Part shown: piece by piece, positions 8,328 through 50,100 of the stretch | Layout of the letters: the number at the start of each line of letters is the position of its first letter | Numbering within the stretch: the first letter of the stretch is position 1 | DNA from: Halorientalis persicus | GTDB taxonomy: Archaea; Halobacteriota; Halobacteria; Halobacteriales; Haloarculaceae | Length of the DNA: 64,000 nucleotides | Reading direction: 5' to 3' | NCBI RefSeq assembly: GCF_900110215.1 | Contig: NZ_FOCX01000011.1 | Coordinates: 1 to 64,000 of the forward strand | Made by a program: the position numbers and the translations under genes | Notes under the pieces: generated by a model | Told to the model about the DNA's origin: nothing | Seen by the model: the letters and a program-made list of their open reading frames with translations, nothing else | Databases searched by the model: none

Positions 8328-9263
8328 ATGCGTGCGAGCATTCTCCTCCTCGGCCTGCTCGCCCTCGCCGTCGCGGGGGCCGGCCTCGCGGTCGCCCACG
8401 GGAATCACGCGACCGCGAACCCACAGGTGTCGGGTAACGGGACCGTCGTCGTCGAGGAGGCCTTCCTCTCGACCGACGGGTACCTCGTCTTGCGGGCCGA
8501 CGACGGCGGCGAGCCCGGCCGGATCGTCGGGGTCCGCTCGCTCGACCCCGGCCGCCACCGCGGTGTCACCGTCCGGGCCGACGACGCGTTCTGGTCGACC
8601 GTCCGCGGGAACGTGACGCTGTGGGCGGTGTTGCACGCGGACGCCGAGGCGGGGGACGCGTTCGACCCAGCCGCTGACACCATGCTCGAATGGTTCGGCG
8701 GGCCGGCCGGCCAGCGACTCGCGGTCGCGCGGGGTGAGCGGCCAGCGTCGGTCGTCACTCGCGGGGTCGGATCGCTCGAAAACGGGACGCTTCCGGTCCT
8801 CGCGGCGAGGCTCCCCGCGGCTGGTTCACTCGTCGTCCACGCGACGGCTGACGGCACGTTCGGGCGGCCACTCGGGTCCCGGACGCTCGCGGCGGGCCGA
8901 CACACGAACGTGCGCGTGCCCGTGAACACCACCGGACTCGACGACCGGGCGACCCTCGCGGTCGCCGTCCACACCGACGACGGCGACGGCCGGTTCGAGG
9001 CGGGGGCCGATCCGGTGGTCCGCGTCGCGGGCGAACCGGTCGTCAGTCGATACGAGCGACTCCCCGACGGGCGCGACTCGATCCGCGTGAACACGCCCAC
9101 ACCGTCCCCCGAGCAGGGTGGTGACGGTGGGACTGCCGACCGGACGCCCACGACCCACTCCCCCGCGGACACGTCGGCCGACGGTGCGGGGCCGGGCGTC
9201 TGGGGCGTCACACTCGCGGTTGCCGTGATCGCCGTGTGGCTGGCGCGTCGCCAGGACGCGTGA
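8328..9263 (+). CDS. DUF7282-like secreted protein with C-terminal anchor
   Basis: A 311-aa protein with a signal peptide (1-23), two similar beta-sandwich modules (about 38-135 and 150-250) and a Thr/Pro/Ser linker. A membrane segment near 285-304 ends in ARRQDA. Both modules contain the pattern (D)G-x-L-V-hydrophobic, then G-R-H-x-x-V, then an A-L/V-H-x-D-A/D stretch, as in DUF7282 domains of haloarchaeal surface proteins. It lies 2 nt from the first lipoprotein gene and just before the second, so it probably belongs to the same envelope complex. No enzyme motif is visible. Confidence 0.65.
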   Translation: MRASILLLGLLALAVAGAGLAVAHGNHATANPQVSGNGTVVVEEAFLSTDGYLVLRADDGGEPGRIVGVRSLDPGRHRGVTVRADDAFWSTVRGNVTLWAVLHADAEAGDAFDPAADTMLEWFGGPAGQRLAVARGERPASVVTRGVGSLENGTLPVLAARLPAAGSLVVHATADGTFGRPLGSRTLAAGRHTNVRVPVNTTGLDDRATLAVAVHTDDGDGRFEAGADPVVRVAGEPVVSRYERLPDGRDSIRVNTPTPSPEQGGDGGTADRTPTTHSPADTSADGAGPGVWGVTLAVAVIAVWLARRQDA

Positions 9264-9316
9264 ACCGGTGCCGTGAATCGGAACGGGCTTTTGTGTCCGA
9301 TGCCTATCGGTCGGCG

Positions 9317-10363
9317 ATGAACAGACGTGCTGTCCTCCGGGCGGGGGCCGGACTGGCTGGCGCGGGGATCGTCGGGGGGTGTCTCCAGACGGAGTCACGA
9401 TCGGTTCGGTCGCCACCGCTGGTCGAGAACCGCCCCGACGCGGTCTACTACCCGACCCACTCCGAGGGGATGGAGATGGTCGGCTCGACGACCGCCGGCG
9501 AGTACAAGGTCGCCGCGATGTACAGCTACCCCCACCGGTTCTGGGAGGTCACGGGCGCGGACACGAACAAGAAGGAACTCGACGGGAGCCATGCGATGCA
9601 CTTCATGGCCGTCGTCTGGGATCCCGAGACGAAGACCGTCCTGCCCAACGCCAGTCTGACCGCCGAACTCACAAAGGACGGTTCGCTGGCCGACCAGACC
9701 AATCTGTACGCGATGCTGTCCCAGCCGATGGGGCTGCACTACGGTAACAACCTCGAGGGCGACGGCGACGGCACCTACACCGCCAGTATCGACATCGGGT
9801 CGGTACCGGACGACCGCGTCCGCCGATCCGGTGACTTCCGGGGGCGGTTCACCGACCCGGCGACCGCCGAAATCCAGTTCGAGTACAGCGAGCGCGCCCG
9901 CGACGACCTGCCGTATCAGGAGTACGACGACGCGGGCAACCGCGCCGCCCTGGAGCCGATGGACATGATGGCTCCCAGCGCGACCGTCCCGCCCGAGGGC
10001 GAGCTGCCGGGTGCGGTCCGCGGCACGGCCACGAGCGGCGACGCCGTGTTCGTGGTCACGGTCCAAGACACGGTGCCCGCGGGCATCGAGGGCGACGGGC
10101 AGTATCTGGCGGTGTTCGCGCACACGCCGTACAACCGGATGGTCCTGCCGTCGATGACTCTCTCCGGATCGCTGGCCGACGACTCGTTCGCCCTCGAATC
10201 GACGCTCGACCCGGACCTGGGGTATCACTACGGTGCGGCCGTCCCCGAGGTGACCGACGGCGACACGCTCGCGATTACAGTCGACACGCCGCCCCAGCTG
10301 GCCCGTCACGAGGGCTACGAGATGGCCTTCCTGACGATGCCGGACGCCGAGGTGCAACTCTGA
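9317..10363 (+). CDS. P19/Tp34-like iron-transport lipoprotein (DUF7350-like), copy 2
   Basis: A 348-aa paralogue of the protein at 7259-8326, with the same two-module plan. The start at 9317 gives a clean Tat-type signal (MNRRAVLRAGAGLAG) and lipobox VGGC with C22; the 27 codons upstream in frame look non-coding. Shared landmarks are H73 in YPHRFW, H95 in MHFMAVVWDPE, H141 in MGLHYGNN, H304 in LGYHYGAA and H331 in ARHEGYE. Retention of the histidines in both copies argues that both bind metal. Its stop overlaps the start of the Dyp-like gene by one base, so the two are surely co-translated. Confidence 0.72.
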   Translation: MNRRAVLRAGAGLAGAGIVGGCLQTESRSVRSPPLVENRPDAVYYPTHSEGMEMVGSTTAGEYKVAAMYSYPHRFWEVTGADTNKKELDGSHAMHFMAVVWDPETKTVLPNASLTAELTKDGSLADQTNLYAMLSQPMGLHYGNNLEGDGDGTYTASIDIGSVPDDRVRRSGDFRGRFTDPATAEIQFEYSERARDDLPYQEYDDAGNRAALEPMDMMAPSATVPPEGELPGAVRGTATSGDAVFVVTVQDTVPAGIEGDGQYLAVFAHTPYNRMVLPSMTLSGSLADDSFALESTLDPDLGYHYGAAVPEVTDGDTLAITVDTPPQLARHEGYEMAFLTMPDAEVQL

Positions 10364-35993: not shown

Positions 35994-37241
35994 TCACTGG
36001 ACGCCCCTCCCGCCCAGCTTCGAGATGGCCGAGAAGGCCTTCTTCCTGAGCTGTTCGCTCTCTGTCTGGTCGATGAGGTCGTCGAGGCGCTTGCGCGTGC
36101 GCTCGCCGCCGACCTTCCCGAGCGTGAACACCGCCTGTGCGCGGACGTTCTCGTCGTAGCCCGTGTCGTCGACGATCTCGAGCAGGCGGCTCTCGACCTG
36201 GGGCCCGCCGATCTCGGCCAGGCTCGTGGACGCGAACTGGGCGGTCATCTGGTCTTCGTCCTCTAAGGTCTCGACCAGTGCCTCGACGATCCGACCGTAG
36301 CCACGGCTGTCCTGATCGGCGACCCGGCCGAGGAGCCAGGCGGTGTTGCGCCGCTGGCGGTCCTGGGTACTCTCTTCGAGGATGTCGATCATCGGCACGA
36401 GGACGCTCTGGTCGTCGGTCCGGTTGAGCTGTTCGACGACGGTCTCGCGGATCTCGTGGCTCTGGTCGGTCGGCACGTTCGAGAGGAGTTCGATGATCGA
36501 GTACACCGCCGTCCGGCGGACCGAGGCGTCGTCGTCGCTCAGGGCCCCGACCAGTCCCTCGACCGGGCGGGAGTTGCCGAAGTTACCCATCGCACCGACG
36601 GCGATCCGCCGGATCGGTGCGCGCTCGTCGTCGAACATCTCGAGCAGTGCGGTCAGGGCCTGTCGGTTGCCGATCGTCCCCAGGGCCTCGGCGGCCTCCC
36701 GGCGCACCTCGGCTTTCGGGTCAGAGAGGCGCTCGATCAGGGCGTCGGTCGCCCGGGCGTCTTCGAGGCGACCGCAGGCGCGGGCGACCCGGGCACGGAC
36801 GCGAGGGTCCGAATCGTCGAGCGATTCCAGTAGCTTGGGCAACACGTCGGTCTTCCCGAGTTCGCCCAGCGCGTTGGCGGCGGCCATCCGGAGTTCGGGC
36901 ACGTCGGCCGTGAGCGCCTGCGCGAAGGCCTTGGCTTTCGCCCAGTCGGCCTGCTGCTCCTCACCGAGGTCGAGCCCGGCCATCTCCGCGATCAACTCCT
37001 CCATCGCGTCGGTGCCCAGCTGGTTCAGCGCGTCGATCGCCGCCGCGGTCACGCGGTCGTCGTCGGCCGACTGGGCCAGATCCACGAGCGGCGTCACCAC
37101 GTCGTGGCCCGCCAGCGTCTCCTCGTCGAAGTCACCGAGGATCCCGGCGGCACGGGCCTTCACTTCCGGGTTGTCGGTGGTCCGGATGACGGACTTCAGT
37201 TCCTCGACCTCGCCTTCGCGTTCCAGCTGGTAGAGTGACAT
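35994..37241 (-). CDS. HEAT-repeat taxis adaptor protein (HEAT_PBS type)
   Basis: A 415-aa solenoid of about twelve helical repeats of roughly 31 residues. Recurring signatures are LGELGKTDVLPKLLESLDDS, EALGTIGNRQALTALLEMFDD and AMGNFGNSRPVEGLVGALSD. A protein of this architecture sits at the same place in the Halobacterium salinarum che locus, where it interacts with CheF and CheY and is needed for switching. The first base of its ATG is the last base of the cheR stop, so translation is coupled. No enzyme residues are expected; it is a scaffold. Confidence 0.88.
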   Translation of the reverse strand: MSLYQLEREGEVEELKSVIRTTDNPEVKARAAGILGDFDEETLAGHDVVTPLVDLAQSADDDRVTAAAIDALNQLGTDAMEELIAEMAGLDLGEEQQADWAKAKAFAQALTADVPELRMAAANALGELGKTDVLPKLLESLDDSDPRVRARVARACGRLEDARATDALIERLSDPKAEVRREAAEALGTIGNRQALTALLEMFDDERAPIRRIAVGAMGNFGNSRPVEGLVGALSDDDASVRRTAVYSIIELLSNVPTDQSHEIRETVVEQLNRTDDQSVLVPMIDILEESTQDRQRRNTAWLLGRVADQDSRGYGRIVEALVETLEDEDQMTAQFASTSLAEIGGPQVESRLLEIVDDTGYDENVRAQAVFTLGKVGGERTRKRLDDLIDQTESEQLRKKAFSAISKLGGRGVQ

Positions 37242-38059
37242 TATGCCTTACGGTAGATGCGGTGGCGTTTGTCGAACGGTTCGAAGGTGTCCCGACACTC
37301 GTGGGGCAGGGTCTCGGTCATCCCGATGACGAGGTAGCCGTCGCCCCGGAGCGACCCCTCGATAGTCTCGAAGATGGGCACCTTGTATTCGGAGTCGATG
37401 TAGATGAGCAGGTTCCGACAGAGCACCAGATCGAAGTCGCGCTTGGGGTCGCCCCGGATGAGGTCGTGGTTCTCGAACTCGACGAGGTCTTTCACCCGGT
37501 CTTTCACCTCGAACCGGTCGCCCTCTTGCTCGACGTAGCTCGTCGAGTCCTCCAGGGGGGCCAGTTCCTCGCCGATATCGGTCGTCTGGGACGTCTCGTA
37601 GACACCCTGGCGGGCTACGTTCAGGGAGTCGTCACTGATGTCGGTGCCCAGAATCGAGAGGCGGCGCGCGTTGATCTCCGGGTCGTCGAGCGCGAGCATC
37701 GCCAGCGAGTACGGTTCGCGGCCGTCGGCACACGGGGCGCTCCAGGCCCGGACCGACCGGCGCTCGTCGGTCAAGCGGCGGAGGACGTCCCGGATGCCAC
37801 TCCAGGCTTCGGGGTTGCGGAAGAAGCCGGTGACGTTGATCGACAGCGAGTCGAGCAGGCGCTCCTGTTCCCCGTCCGTCGTGGTCAACTGGTCGCGGTA
37901 CTCACCGTAGCTGTCGGCCCCGGTCCGGCGCATCCGGGCGGTGATCCGCCGATCGAGGTAGGCGTCGTTGTAGAAGCCGGTCTCGAACCCGACCTCGCGC
38001 TGGATGTACCCGAGCAGGTCGTCGAACGCCTCGCGGGACTCCTGTCTGCTGTCGGTCAT
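37241..38059 (-). CDS. cheR: CheR, protein-glutamate O-methyltransferase
   Basis: A 272-aa methyltransferase that transfers methyl groups from S-adenosylmethionine to glutamates of transducers, setting adaptation together with CheB. The N-terminal helical domain ends in LSINVTGFFRNPEAW (family NVTxFFR). The SAM fold shows WSAPCADGREPYSLAML (the usual G-E-E-P motif has R-E-P), LGTDISDDSLNVARQGVY and VLCRNLLIYID. Its ATG follows the cheA TGA without a gap on the minus strand (cheA stop at 38060-38062), and its stop overlaps the next ATG. Confidence 0.93.
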   Translation of the reverse strand: MTDSRQESREAFDDLLGYIQREVGFETGFYNDAYLDRRITARMRRTGADSYGEYRDQLTTTDGEQERLLDSLSINVTGFFRNPEAWSGIRDVLRRLTDERRSVRAWSAPCADGREPYSLAMLALDDPEINARRLSILGTDISDDSLNVARQGVYETSQTTDIGEELAPLEDSTSYVEQEGDRFEVKDRVKDLVEFENHDLIRGDPKRDFDLVLCRNLLIYIDSEYKVPIFETIEGSLRGDGYLVIGMTETLPHECRDTFEPFDKRHRIYRKA

Positions 38060-40078
38060 TCAGAGGGTCACCACGTCGAGGATGTGGACGATGTTGCCGT
38101 CGCCAAGCACCGCCGTCCCCGAGAGGCCGGGCGTCCCGCTGAGGATCCCCTCCAGGGGTTTGACGACGACTTCCTCCTGCTGGGTGACCGCGTCACACTT
38201 CAGCGCGACCTGACGTTCGGATTCGCGAATCCGGACGAGCATCCCGTCACCGTTGGTCTTGGCGTCGGGCACGTCGAACGCATCGGCGATGTCGACGATG
38301 GGGTAGATGTCGTCGTTGTGTTCGACGACCTCCTCGCCGTTGACGACCTTGGTCCCGTTCATCTGGCTGATCTCGTCGATGTTCTTGATCGGGACGCCGT
38401 ACTGCTCGTCGCCGACCTGTACGAACAGGACCTTGACGATGGCCATCGTCACGGGCAGGCGAAGCGAGACAGTGGTCCCCTCGCCGGGCTCGGAGTCGAC
38501 CGACACGGAGCCGTCCAGTTGCGTGACGGTGTCGTGGACTACGTCCATCCCGACGCCGCGGCCGCTGGTGTCGGTGACCTCCTCCTTCGTCGAGAGGCCG
38601 GGGTGGAAGGCCAGGTCGTAGATCTCGCCCTCCTCCATCCGGTCGAGTTCTTCCTCGGTCCGGACCTCGTTCTCGATTGCCTCTCTGCGGATCTCGTTGA
38701 CGTCGAGTCCGGCACCGTCGTCTTCGACCTCGATGATGACGTGGTCGCGTTCGCGCGTGGCGCGCAACTCGACGGTCCCCTCGCGGGGTTTCCCCTTCCG
38801 TTCGCGCTCTTCGGGGGGTTCGATCCCGTGGTCGACCGAGTTCCGGAGGATATGCATCAGCGGATCCGAGATTTCGGTGAGGATCGTCCGGTCGAGTTCG
38901 ATGTCCTCGCCCTCGATCTGGAAGTTCACCTCCTTGTCGAGTTCCCGCGCCAGGTCCCGGACGAGTCGCGGGAACTTGCCCACGACTTTCTTCAGCGGGA
39001 TCAGGCGCATATCCATCACCGTGTTCTGGAGGTTGGCGCTGATCTTGTCCAGTTCGTTCAGGTTCTCGCTGGCGGCGTCCATGTCGCCGTCGGCGACGGC
39101 CCGGCGGAGCTTGATCCGGCTGGTCACGAGCTGTTCGACCTGCCCGTGGAGTTCGTCGAGCCGGTCCACGTCCACGCGGACGGACTTGATCTCGTCGACC
39201 GAGGAGTCCGTCGACGCCGCCGTCTCACCGCTGTCGTCGCCGTCGTCGCCGTCGTCGCCGAACGCCTCGACCCGCTCGACGGCGAAGGCGTCGATCTTGG
39301 AGACGCTGTTGAGACTGCCGCGCAACACGTCGGTGTCGGGAGCGTCGACCAGCAGGTCGAACCCGCCCTCGTACTCGCCGTCCTCGATCTCTGCGCGGGC
39401 GGGCTCGGCGGCCAGCAACTCGAAGGTGTCCGCGACGGCCTCGACGGCGAGCATCCCGTCGACGCCGAGCATATTGCTGTCGCCGATCTCGACGCGGACG
39501 TGATAGGCTTCGTCGGCGTCGACGCTTGCGTCCGCAAACACCGACGTGTCGACCGTCACGTCCGAGCCGCCGCCGTCAGCGTCGCCGTCGGCTGTATCGT
39601 CCGCATCGCCGCCCTCGCTCTCGGCGGTGTCGTCGCTGTCCGCCTCGACATCGTCGGACTCGTCGTCGGTCGTGTCACTCCCGCCGCCGGCCGCTTCGGG
39701 ACCGTCTTCGAGGACGCCCCGGATCTCGGCGACCATCTCGTCGGTGTCGGTCGTGGACTCGCCCTCGGCTTCGATCTCGCCGACGATGACCTCGATCTGG
39801 TCGACACCCGCGAAGATCATGTCCATCACTTCGGGGGTGACTTCCATGTTGCCCTCGCGCATCTCGTCCAGCAGATCCTCGATGGCGTGGGCGAGATCAC
39901 TCGCGTCCTCGAAGCCCATCGCGCCGAAGTTGCCCTTCAGCGTGTGGGCCGTCCGGAAGATCGACTCCATCGCTTGCTCGTCTTCCGGATCGGACTCCAG
40001 GGCGAGCAGGGAGTTGTTCAGTTCGGTTATCGCTTCCTCGCTTTCGCGGATGAACGCGTCGAGATACTGGTCGTCTAT
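38060..40078 (-). CDS. cheA: CheA chemotaxis histidine kinase, apparent ATA start
   Basis: CheA phosphorylates itself from ATP and passes phosphate to CheY and CheB. Read from an ATA codon at 40078 the protein has 672 aa. It begins (M)DDQYLDAFIRESEEAITEL, the normal start of a haloarchaeal phosphotransfer domain, with H45 in TAHTLKG as the phosphorylation site. A long acidic linker, a P2-like domain (about 195-270), the dimerisation helices, the ATPase domain (HILRNSVDHGIE, DDGAGLD, GRGVGMD) and a CheW-like domain follow. The first ATG in frame is at 39970, inside the Hpt domain. No ATG, GTG or TTG lies between the cheB stop, which is in the same frame, and that ATG. Confidence 0.88.
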   Translation of the reverse strand: MDDQYLDAFIRESEEAITELNNSLLALESDPEDEQAMESIFRTAHTLKGNFGAMGFEDASDLAHAIEDLLDEMREGNMEVTPEVMDMIFAGVDQIEVIVGEIEAEGESTTDTDEMVAEIRGVLEDGPEAAGGGSDTTDDESDDVEADSDDTAESEGGDADDTADGDADGGGSDVTVDTSVFADASVDADEAYHVRVEIGDSNMLGVDGMLAVEAVADTFELLAAEPARAEIEDGEYEGGFDLLVDAPDTDVLRGSLNSVSKIDAFAVERVEAFGDDGDDGDDSGETAASTDSSVDEIKSVRVDVDRLDELHGQVEQLVTSRIKLRRAVADGDMDAASENLNELDKISANLQNTVMDMRLIPLKKVVGKFPRLVRDLARELDKEVNFQIEGEDIELDRTILTEISDPLMHILRNSVDHGIEPPEERERKGKPREGTVELRATRERDHVIIEVEDDGAGLDVNEIRREAIENEVRTEEELDRMEEGEIYDLAFHPGLSTKEEVTDTSGRGVGMDVVHDTVTQLDGSVSVDSEPGEGTTVSLRLPVTMAIVKVLFVQVGDEQYGVPIKNIDEISQMNGTKVVNGEEVVEHNDDIYPIVDIADAFDVPDAKTNGDGMLVRIRESERQVALKCDAVTQQEEVVVKPLEGILSGTPGLSGTAVLGDGNIVHILDVVTL

Positions 40079-40081
40079 AGT

Positions 40082-41209
40082 TTAGGCCTCCGTAAGCGCG
40101 TCGAGTACGGCGTCGGTGATCGACTCCAGTGCGAGCTCGTCGTCGACGACGCCAGTCTCGACGGCTCGTTTCGGCATCCCGTATACTGCCGAACTCGCCT
40201 CGTTCTGGGCGATCACGTGGCCCCCCGCCCGCGCGACGGCGCGGACACCGTCGGCACCGTCGGTCCCCATCCCGGTCAGGATGACCGCGACCATCGGGTC
40301 CGTGATGCAGTCGGCGGCGGTCCGCATCGTCACGTCGACGGCCGGACGAACGCTGTTTTCCGGTGGTGCCTCCGTGAGCGCCACGCGGAGTCGCCCGCGT
40401 GCGTAGTTGGTAACTTCCATGTGTTTGCCGCCGGCGGCGACCAGCGCCTCGCCGCTGCCGATGCGTGCGCCGTCGGTCGCCTCGGCCACGTCGTAGTCGC
40501 TCCGGCTGTCGAGACGCTCGGCGAACCGACCCGTGAACCCGTCCGGCATATGCTGGACGATCAGCACACGCAGGCCCGCTTCCAGGGGCAGTTCGGCCAT
40601 GATCCGTTCGACGACCGTCGGGCCACCCGTCGACGATCCGAGCAACAGCGTCGGGTTGTCGACGTACGCCGCCGGTTCCGTGACGCTCCCGGCGTCGGCC
40701 CTGTCGGCGTCCGCCGTCGTCCCGGCCGTCGCCGTCTCGGCGGCCTCGACGGCCTCGGTGTAGGCCTCCTGTGGCGTGGTCGCGTCGGTGCCCGGACCGA
40801 CGCGCACGTCGACTTCGGCCACTGACTGGACCATCTCGACCAGCTGGTCTTCCAGCCGGGACATCTCCATCGAGACCTCTCCGCCGGGCTTGGTGAAGAA
40901 ATCGACCGCGCCCTTCTCCAGGGCCTCGAAGGTCACATCGTCGTTCTCGTCGGTGTGGGCCGACAGCATGAGAACGGGCGTCGGCGCGGTGGCCATGATC
41001 TCCTCCACGGCCTCGATGCCGTTCATCTCGGGCATCTCCACGTCCATCGTCACCACGTCGGGCTCGTGTTCGCGGACGGCACGGACCGCTTCGCGACCGT
41101 TGCGTGCCTCCGCGACGACCTCGACGCCGCTCTCCTCGAGCATATCGGAGATGACGCTGCGCATGAAGTGGGAATCGTCGGTGACGACGGCCCGGGTCGC
41201 CCGTGCCAT
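40082..41209 (-). CDS. cheB: CheB, protein-glutamate methylesterase/deamidase
   Basis: A 375-aa response regulator that demethylates or deamidates transducer residues. The receiver domain has TDDSHFMR with the acidic pocket and the phospho-acceptor Asp in VTMDVEMPEMNG. The linker is about 60 residues. The esterase triad is Ser in LLLGSSTGGP, His in VQHMPDGF and Asp in GMGTDGADG. It is the first gene of the minus-strand che operon, divergent from cheW over a 250-bp shared region. Its stop TAA is three bases before the apparent ATA start of cheA and in the same frame. Confidence 0.95.
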   Translation of the reverse strand: MARATRAVVTDDSHFMRSVISDMLEESGVEVVAEARNGREAVRAVREHEPDVVTMDVEMPEMNGIEAVEEIMATAPTPVLMLSAHTDENDDVTFEALEKGAVDFFTKPGGEVSMEMSRLEDQLVEMVQSVAEVDVRVGPGTDATTPQEAYTEAVEAAETATAGTTADADRADAGSVTEPAAYVDNPTLLLGSSTGGPTVVERIMAELPLEAGLRVLIVQHMPDGFTGRFAERLDSRSDYDVAEATDGARIGSGEALVAAGGKHMEVTNYARGRLRVALTEAPPENSVRPAVDVTMRTAADCITDPMVAVILTGMGTDGADGVRAVARAGGHVIAQNEASSAVYGMPKRAVETGVVDDELALESITDAVLDALTEA

Positions 41210-41459
41210 TCAGCTCCCTCCGTGGGAACCGGACGGCCGGTCGCGACGGGGGTGCGCGTCGCTGACGGTCGCCGTTGTGTGTGCGAGACGGTCCGTCCGC
41301 GTCGGGCGTTTCGGCATCCGTGAGTTCTGTCCCGGAGGTATCCGCGAGCACCCAATAAAGACACCGCCCCCGTAATCAAATGTGATAGCCCAGGGGCCAA
41401 TCTTAAGTCCGGATCCGCGTTCAGTTGGGAGTAGACCGACGGCGACGGTCGAATCTACT

Positions 41460-41918
41460 ATGTCACAGGCGACACCGACGGACACCGCCGAGGCGACGGG
41501 GCAGGTACTGGAGTTCGAACTCGGCCCGGAGACGTACTGCGTCGACATCGACTACGTGACCGAGATCGTCGACGTGGGCGAGTTGACCGGGCTCCCGAAC
41601 GCACCCGACTACGTGAAAGGTGTGATGGACCTGCGCGGGCGCACGACGGCCATCGTCGACCCGAAGACGATCTTCGACGTCAACGGGGCCGACGCCGACG
41701 CCCAGCGCATCATCGTGTTCGACCCCGAGATCATCGCCGACCGGAAGGCTGCCGGGTGGCTCGTCGACGAGGTCCACCAGGTCGTCAAGCTCGACCCCGA
41801 CACCATCGAGGAAGCGCCCGAGAGCGGTCGCGAGGCGGTTCGGGGCGTCATCAACCACGAGGACGACGACGAGGAGGGGTTCGTCATCTGGGTCGATCCA
41901 CAGGCCGTCCACAAGTAA
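41460..41918 (+). CDS. cheW: CheW, chemotaxis coupling protein
   Basis: A 152-aa CheW that links CheA to transducers. Two SH3-like barrels are recognisable from LEFELGPETYCVDIDYVTEI, PDYVKGVMDLRGRTTAIVDP (the conserved GVMxLRG stretch) and GWLVDEVHQVVKL. The ATG at 41460 excludes 26 upstream in-frame codons that do not look like protein. TTAAGT near 41403 may be its TATA box. It is the first gene of the plus-strand motility arm. Confidence 0.94.
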   Translation: MSQATPTDTAEATGQVLEFELGPETYCVDIDYVTEIVDVGELTGLPNAPDYVKGVMDLRGRTTAIVDPKTIFDVNGADADAQRIIVFDPEIIADRKAAGWLVDEVHQVVKLDPDTIEEAPESGREAVRGVINHEDDDEEGFVIWVDPQAVHK

Positions 41919-43886: not shown

Positions 43887-43960
43887 CAAGACATGATTCT
43901 GTCAGTGTAGAGTCCGGGTCGGCCGTGACGGTCGCTCGGGCACAGGTAACAAAAACCATG

Positions 43961-44635
43961 TTCGAGATATTCAAAGAAGACGAAGATCGGGGTCAGGTCG
44001 GTATCGGGACCCTCATCGTGTTCATCGCGATGGTGCTGGTCGCGGCGATCGCGGCGGGTGTCCTGATCAACACGGCCGGCTTCCTGCAGAGTCAGTCAGA
44101 AGAGACGGGTCAACAATCGAGTCAACAGGTCACCAACCGGCTGGCGGTCCAGCAGTCCAGCGGGCTGGTCGAAGAAATAACTGGTGATAAACTGGTCGTC
44201 GGTGGTGTCGAGATGATCGCCACCAAAGCTCCCGGGGCAGAGGACATCGACCTCACCGGCGTGACGATGCAGTGGGTCGACGACTCCGGGACGTACGATC
44301 TGGTTCACGAAAACGTGGCCAATAGTGATGATAATAACAACAACCCTGACGGGACCTTTAGTCACGTCGCAATCAAAGACCAGGACAGTTCCCTCTCCGG
44401 GGATGCTCCGGTAATCAACAGTCCGGACGACCGGGCGAAGATCATTATCAGTGTCGGAGATATCTACTCAGAAGATCCTGCTTTCCCGACGAACGCAATT
44501 CCGATTAATGGAGGAGACGGACTCGAAGAAGGCGATACGGCGACGATCCGTATTACCACCCAGTCCGGGTCCGTCTCGACGGTTCGGCTGACCGTCCCCG
44601 AATCGCTGAGTGGCAAGTCCGCCGCCACGCTGTAA
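43961..44635 (+). CDS. arlB: Archaellin (archaellum filament protein)
   Basis: A 224-aa class III-signal protein that polymerises into the archaellum. Prepilin peptidase should cut after G12 (DEDRG before [20 protein letters not shown]), leaving the filament-core helix at the mature N-terminus. The outer beta domain follows. No N-x-S/T sequon exists anywhere in the protein, which is unusual because haloarchaeal archaellins are normally N-glycosylated; the NNNN run at about 128-131 is followed by Pro. Only this one archaellin gene is in the window. The start at 43961 leaves the usual short basic/acidic leader. Confidence 0.93.
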
Positions 44636-48083: not shown

Positions 48084-48291
48084 TTCGCTCGCGGGTATTT
48101 AAACGACGAGTGTTTCTATCGGTGATAACAGAACCTGCGATAGCGGGAACGACGGCCTATCGGCCGTGGGTGTGTCTGAAACCCGATTTCGGCTAATTCG
48201 CCCGAAATCTCCAGTTGAAGCGTCTGACGAGTATCACTCATGATACTATAAGCGACAGGTTGAAGGCCGTAAGGGGCGAATACTGACAGTG

Positions 48292-50100
48292 ATGAGTAGT
48301 CTCGCCGCGGGCCCGGTCGCGTTCGTGTTCGCCGCCGGTGCCGAAGGGTTGGTCCCGGAGGGGCTGGCCCCGCTGGTGGCGCTCGTGGCCAGCGGCGTCG
48401 TCGGGATGAGTATCAAGAACGTCTTCGACTCGATACTCTCCGACGAGGAGGAAGAGGGCGATCTCGGCGGCGATATGGGCGGCGATATGGGCGACGACAT
48501 GGGCGATGACGGCGGCCTGATGGCCGACGAGGGCGGTGACGACCTCGACGACCTGGGCGGGCTCGGCGGCGACGACGACCTCGGCGGCTTCGACGACGAC
48601 GGCGACGGGTTCGGCGACATGGACGGCGGCGGTGGCGGTCCGGCCACAGACGAACTGGAGAACCGGCTGGACGAACTCGAAAACGAGGTCGGCAGTCTCC
48701 AGTCGACCGTCAACACCGTCCGCAACGAGAACGAGCAGATCGGCGAGCAGGTGCAGGACCTGGACGAGAACATCCGGAAGCTGCTCGACATCTACGAGAT
48801 GGTCACTCGTGGCGTCAATCCCTTCGCCGACGACATTCAGGCCGGCGCGGGCGGCGGTCTGGAAGACGGGAGTTTCGGCCTGTTCAGCGACGACGACGAC
48901 GGCGACGACGAAGAGGAGATCGACGACGAGATCGCCAACGCCGACGCCGAGGGCTTTTTCGACGAAGACCTCGTGGAGGACGAGGATGACGACAGCGTGG
49001 AGGACGTCGGTGACGACCTCGGCGGCGTCAGCGACGTCGTCGACGGCGGTGACGACGGTGCTGACGGAGGTGACGACATGGACGAGTTCGGAGACATCGA
49101 CGACTTCGACGACGGTGGCGACGACATGGACGAGTTCGGAGACATGGACGACTTCGACGACGGCGGCGACGATTTCGATGATTTCGACGACGGTGGCGAC
49201 GACGATGGCGGCGGTGACGGTGACGGCGGGAAGTCATTTCAGGAACTCAAACAGGAGTACGAATCCGGTGACGCCGACTGGGCCGAAGGCGAAGAGCCCG
49301 ACGACGCCGCGGACGACGGTGACGACGAGGACGAGCCCGTGGTCGAGCCCGCCGACGACCTGGAGGACGGCGACGACTTCGACGACGGATTCGGCGACCT
49401 GGACGACGACCTCGGCGACGCCGAAGAGAGCATGGACGGTGACGTCGTAGAGTCCACGGACGTCGACGACGTCCTCCCGTCGGCCGGTGACGACGGCAAC
49501 GACGACGGAGCCGACGAGACGGCCGACGGGGCCGGTGCGATGGCCGCCGAGACCGAGCCCGACCCGGAGGTGGATTCGGAACCGGAGCCCGAGCTGGACG
49601 CCGAACCGGAGCCAGAACCCGAACCGGAGCCAGAACCCGAACCGGAGCCAGAACCCGAACCCGAACCAGAGCCTGAACCGGAGCCCGCGGCCGCGACCAC
49701 CGACGCCCCCGTGACGGACCAGCAGAGCGCGCCCGAAACGGACGGAACCGCGACGGACGACGGGCCGGGGAAGCCGTACCTCCGGGCGCTCCCGGACGGG
49801 TACGCGGCCGATCTGATCGTCATGGAGTGGCTGGAGTACCTCGTCGCGGAGTCGGACGTGCGCGAGACGGCGGAAGCCATCCAGTACTACGAGCGGATCG
49901 ACTGGCTCAGTGAGTCGGTGGCGACGGAGCTACGGTCGTTCCTGTCGGGATTCGACGGCGGCGGGTCGGGTGGATCGCTGACGATCGATCACCACACCCA
50001 GAGTCTCCGCTACATTAGCCAACTGGGCGAGGACGCCGCCGACGGGGCGGCCATGCGACTGTTGGCCCGTGGAGGTGGTGGTGATGGGCTTCAGCATTAG
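48292..50100 (+). CDS. arlCE: ArlCE, archaellum switch protein (fused ArlC and ArlE)
   Basis: A 602-aa fusion of the cytosolic archaellum proteins that form the chemotaxis-responsive switch under the motor. The N-terminus has a hydrophobic stretch ([16 protein letters not shown]) and then an acidic Gly/Asp/Met repeat. A coiled coil (about 115-165, [20 protein letters not shown]) belongs to the ArlC part. A long Asp/Gly linker with near-perfect [18 protein letters not shown] units and an EPEPEP run (about 425-465) leads to the ArlD/E domain ([20 protein letters not shown]). A GTG one codon upstream is a possible alternative start. Confidence 0.88.

Follow-up and report, generated by a model that had tools for sequence, protein, structure and literature searches.

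An ATA codon at the conserved start position of cheA in a Halorientalis che/archaellum cluster

Introduction

Haloarchaeal CheA proteins form the NCBIfam equivalog family CheA_Halo (NF041336), and their gene lies in a cheB-cheA-cheR cluster. The cheA gene described here has the same domain set and gene order, and differs in carrying ATA instead of ATG at its start column, a feature that is unique among the sequences that we examined. It is located in a stretch of 64,000 nucleotides, hereafter the window. The nearest named genomes to the window are those of Halorientalis regularis, H. pallida and H. marina, joined by a Halorientalis metagenome-assembled genome (MAG), which places it in Halorientalis (Haloarculaceae).

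In closely spaced gene pairs of Haloferax volcanii, the downstream gene is translated by termination-reinitiation in strict dependence on the upstream gene, a process that Shine-Dalgarno (SD) motifs help often, though not always (PMC6728339). The efficiency of this coupling drops steeply with distance and was reduced by 60% at 13 nt in one pair (PMC10666635). As for the stringency of start-codon choice, a Haloferax reporter with no leader or a very short one gave no detectable product from a UUG start (PMC4574771), and archaeal aIF1 was reported to destabilise non-AUG complexes (PMC6237735). In the literature that we searched, no demonstration of AUA initiation was found for any archaeon.

Precedents for AUA starts come from Staphylococcus aureus, where three genes have non-canonical starts, two of them AUA, with about 10% of the expression obtained from AUG; ccpN reaches up to 30% in rich medium, the NCTC 8325 laboratory lineage keeps an AUA start in citZ, and a helping role at such starts has been attributed to extended SD motifs (PMC13009471). 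Changes from AUG to a non-NTG codon are very rare: among 61,358 ancestral AUG starts, one became AUU and two became CUG, in a type of survey that depends on annotated starts (PMC5622118). In the haloarchaeon Halobacterium salinarum, an ATG-to-ATA start SNP arose in nadA during knockout construction (PMC11834397).

Results

The cheA reading frame (positions 38060 to 40078, minus strand) comprises 672 codons if it is started at the ATA at 40078. Read from this codon, the predicted protein carries the Hpt (residues 4-94), P2, H-kinase_dim, HATPase_c and CheW domains, and matches CheA_Halo over profile positions 1-666 of 666 with 999.2 bits, for a cut-off of 950. Its residues 3-109 align to solved CheA P1 domains, such as 2LD6 and 1TQG, and a single close match to cheA is present in the genome. 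By their open reading frames and their domain or family matches, the neighbours are cheB (40082 to 41209, minus strand, 375 amino acids), the intact cheR downstream of cheA (37241 to 38059, minus strand) and the intact, divergently oriented cheW (41382 to 41918, plus strand). Further along, between 45960 and 53890 on the plus strand, domain and family matches identify open frames for cheY, cheC, cheD and archaellum genes (encoding a FlaC/D/E-domain protein, an archaellin-domain protein, arlH and arlI). The che/archaellum cluster around cheA is thus intact.

Several neighbouring frames have features of their own. A HEAT-repeat protein encoded directly downstream of cheR (35997 to 37241, minus strand) is conserved in Halorientalis relatives and reaches the cut-off of no NCBIfam family. 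An archaellin-like protein (43952 to 44632, plus strand) has 56% identity to its H. regularis match vs 79% to that of the relative G003, unlike the neighbouring genes, which might reflect recombination or surface-protein diversification. Finally, a single frame (48244 to 50097, plus strand) contains both FlaC and FlaD/E archaellum domains separated by a low-complexity stretch, which gives a weak match to a repetitive-protein family; the alignment with relatives is broken in the middle of this frame.

The junction of cheB and cheA reads, on the minus strand, GGAGGCC TAA ACT ATA GAC GAC CAG TAT CTC GAC GCG. The TAA (40084-40082), which follows the codons GAG GCC, is the cheB stop; cheB and cheA are in one frame and the single codon ACT separates the stop from the ATA (40076 to 40078, minus strand), a distance of 3 nt. 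The ATA occupies the position at which the relatives have their ATG, presumably the ancestral start. A putative SD-like GGAGG motif within the end of cheB (40087 to 40091, minus strand) lies 8 nt upstream of the ATA and is kept in every Halorientalis junction that we read, the other cheA genes of the genus likewise having a GGAGG-type motif before their start. The earliest ATG, GTG or TTG of the cheA frame is the ATG at 39970 (39968 to 39970), which would leave 636 amino acids. Numbering the ATA as residue 1, this methionine is residue 37 and the phospho-acceptor histidine of the AHTLKG motif is His45, which becomes residue 9 in the short form. A start at 39970 also reduces the Hpt profile match from positions 1-73 to positions 27-73 of 84, and the 36 residues removed include what we take, from knowledge of the fold, to be the first Hpt helix. 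An earlier sequence-only reading had claimed that cheA has an ATA instead of an ordinary start codon, that no ATG, GTG or TTG precedes 39970 and that a start there would cut the Hpt domain and leave the phospho-histidine at residue 9; all of this stands. A canonical start is something that the relatives share and the family model does not ask for; its loss bears on expression and not on the kinship of the coding sequence.

As for the RNA around the start, an 81-nt stretch is predicted to be less folded than its shuffled versions (z 1.85) and a 69-nt stretch is near average; with ATG instead of ATA, the region folds 2 kcal/mol more stably. The 16S tail, sought as a short pattern, gave 21 chance-like matches. 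Codon 17 of cheA (40028-40030, minus strand) is also ATA and is ATC in all seven other Halorientalis sequences, so that this rare codon has arisen privately twice in cheA within 50 bases.

We compared the start of cheA in relatives, as had been proposed along with the suggestion of an ATG-to-ATA change. The start codon is ATG in all seven Halorientalis relatives and ATA in none, and across the junction H. regularis (TAAACTATGGACGACCAG) differs from the window (TAAACTATAGACGACCAG) by a single base, which turns ATG into ATA; the suggested change is therefore real as a difference between the two sequences. The junction reads TGAATCATG in the Halorientalis MAG and H. pallida, TAACTTATG in G003 and TAACTCATG in G005, while the CheA proteins of G004 and H. 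marina begin with MVD. In H. regularis, H. pallida, the MAG, G003 and G005, an in-frame cheB TAA or TGA is followed one codon on by a normal cheA ATG, and in H. marina and G004 the two genes are in different frames. About 70 other haloarchaeal cheA loci were read, and these start with ATG, or with GTG in one case. Among 146 genomes of the family, the DD(Q/E)YLD start pattern is preceded by NTG in 62 and by ATA in one, which is the window's own genome; the non-canonical start is thus private to this genome, unlike that of S. aureus ccpN, which is conserved among relatives. Provided that the base call is right, this is a substitution relative to its kin.

Along 144 kb of the contig, we set the conserved start columns against those of two or three relatives. 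Among 108 such columns, 106 have NTG (78 ATG, 23 GTG and 5 TTG), cheA alone has ATA, and the remaining flagged column is spurious, being deep inside a gene. Habitual use of ATA starts, considered as an explanation, is rejected on this contig. In gene bodies of this contig, ATA represents 0.12% of the codons and 3% of the isoleucine codons. The three matches to the initiator-like anticodon stem-loop GGGCTNATAACCC all read CAT, and at these sites ARAGORN predicted a tRNA-Met (cat) at two and no tRNA at the third. With the other conserved starts being NTG, ATA being rare and the tRNA-Met anticodon being CAT, the ATA of cheA is a single event: a G-to-A change private to this genome, and no convention of it, in a gene that is intact. 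Since the relatives have an ordinary start in this column, ATA is rare in gene bodies and the other conserved starts of the contig are kept, the loss of the cheA start goes beyond chance. The C-terminal ends of genes were also compared with those of relatives over the 144 kb; the only truncation flagged (9277-9744) was dismissed as a shadow frame of the intact ORF 9236-10363.

Decay of cheA was considered and rejected. Neither further disabling changes nor clearly relaxed selection was seen in this gene: its frame is open and the comparison with H. regularis gives a dN/dS of 0.13 from codon 38 to the end. Codons 2-37 differ from those of H. regularis by 5 synonymous changes and 1 nominal non-synonymous one, which is the start codon itself, counted because this alignment carries an extra leading column. 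Against three of four references, the window and H. regularis, its sister in this comparison, have similar numbers of non-synonymous differences (86.5 and 90.5 for G003, 86.2 and 83 for the MAG LUM68, 128.2 and 129.2 for G005), which indicates no clear relaxation. With H. pallida as reference, the window shows the higher count (60.5 vs 42.5), so that a slight acceleration of cheA evolution in the window is conceivable. Private changes in the cheR-cheA-cheB region number 57 in the window, 50 in H. regularis and 40 in H. pallida, without excess, and G>A (14) is among the commonest. An open and constrained cheA implies that the lesion at its start is recent, tolerated or not real.

Discussion

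Altogether, we lean slightly towards the following interpretation: an ordinary haloarchaeal cheA would have changed its ATG to ATA by a private and recent substitution, full-length CheA still being made weakly from AUA. In one Halorientalis strain, a single G-to-A substitution would have created the ATA; ribosomes that finish cheB at its UAA, which lies three bases upstream, would be held by the GGAGG motif and reinitiate at the AUA, with which the ordinary initiator Met-tRNA (anticodon CAU) would pair at the first two positions. Full-length CheA would then be made at a reduced level. The 3-nt distance and the GGAGG motif 8 nt upstream suggest that ribosomes are delivered to this codon; from the coupling, the two-position pairing and the S. 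aureus precedent, weighed against the stringency data, we infer that a weak residual production of CheA is plausible. That reinitiation from cheB positions the ribosome well enough for a native archaeal gene to be translated from AUA, with low but adequate amounts of CheA, is a more specific proposal, which we consider possible but rather doubtful. If the AUA is wholly unused, the strain would be a cheA loss-of-function mutant and non-chemotactic.

The two closest precedents resemble the cheA case in part. Like cheA, S. aureus citZ is a gene that is normal apart from an AUA start restricted to one lineage; it belongs to a bacterium with IF3-type initiation and its expression was measured, whereas cheA is archaeal and lies in the middle of an operon. 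In H. salinarum nadA, the identical substitution arose spontaneously at a haloarchaeal start codon, as in cheA, in a different gene and with the difference that the SNP was found by resequencing with the parent known.

The strong rival is an error of sequencing or consensus, the strain truly having ATG at 40078-40076 and the assembly one wrong base, a possibility that we hold to be substantial while somewhat less than even. Indeed, the sole mismatch with H. regularis over the junction sits precisely in the start codon, and the change falls at an invariant and functionally critical position while the remainder of cheA is constrained. No further start is lost on the contig, the assembly is a draft of 121 contigs, and one miscalled base would look identical to a real substitution. 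This reading has to face the finding that no conserved gene is truncated over the 144 kb compared and that private substitutions are not in excess in the che region. The intactness of the contig argues against a generally poor assembly; it says little about one base.

Alternatively, the substitution could be real and CheA be supplied in another way. Translation could begin at the ATG at 39970, the shortened protein being the working form: this is the earliest canonical in-frame start, and Met37 is present in all the Halorientalis sequences compared. The relatives, however, start normally upstream of Met37, the residues 1-36 that would be lost align to the P1 domains 1TQG and 2LD6, the Hpt match shrinks, and, apart from the start, no amino-acid change in the lost codons is private. 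A start at 39970 would cost CheA a stretch of its Hpt domain that has been kept intact by purifying selection, and we judge this solution very improbable. It was also suggested that readthrough of the cheB UAA gives a CheB-CheA fusion; the common frame of the genes, in which one sense codon (ACT) parts the stop from the ATA, speaks for it. This idea has lost ground with the comparison, and the chance that readthrough supplies CheA is in our view slight indeed: the five relatives with an in-frame TAA or TGA also have a normal ATG, so that the layout is not selected for fusion, and in two others the frames differ. A conserved CheB-CheA fusion is rejected on the same ground, every relative with cheB and cheA in the same frame having its ATG. 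Moreover, UAA is in general the stop codon least prone to readthrough. As working solutions, readthrough and an internal start are both unlikely, though either could yield trace amounts.

Most probably, then, the ATA represents a real and recent mutation that entails either weak initiation on AUA or loss of function, a sequence error being the strong rival. Such a start would be a new instance of an already known kind of change and probably involves no new biological system. If the base is wrong, the case shows why start codons should be checked ahead of any biological interpretation. If the strain is non-chemotactic, it would be a one-base cheA mutant, natural or acquired in culture. Should the base be real and the strain still swim in a controlled manner, AUA would be shown to serve an archaeal ribosome as a start in a coupled position, and genes of this sort to escape gene finders and N-terminal annotation. 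A cheA gene truly translated from AUA would let the stringency of start-codon choice during haloarchaeal reinitiation be tested in a natural setting.
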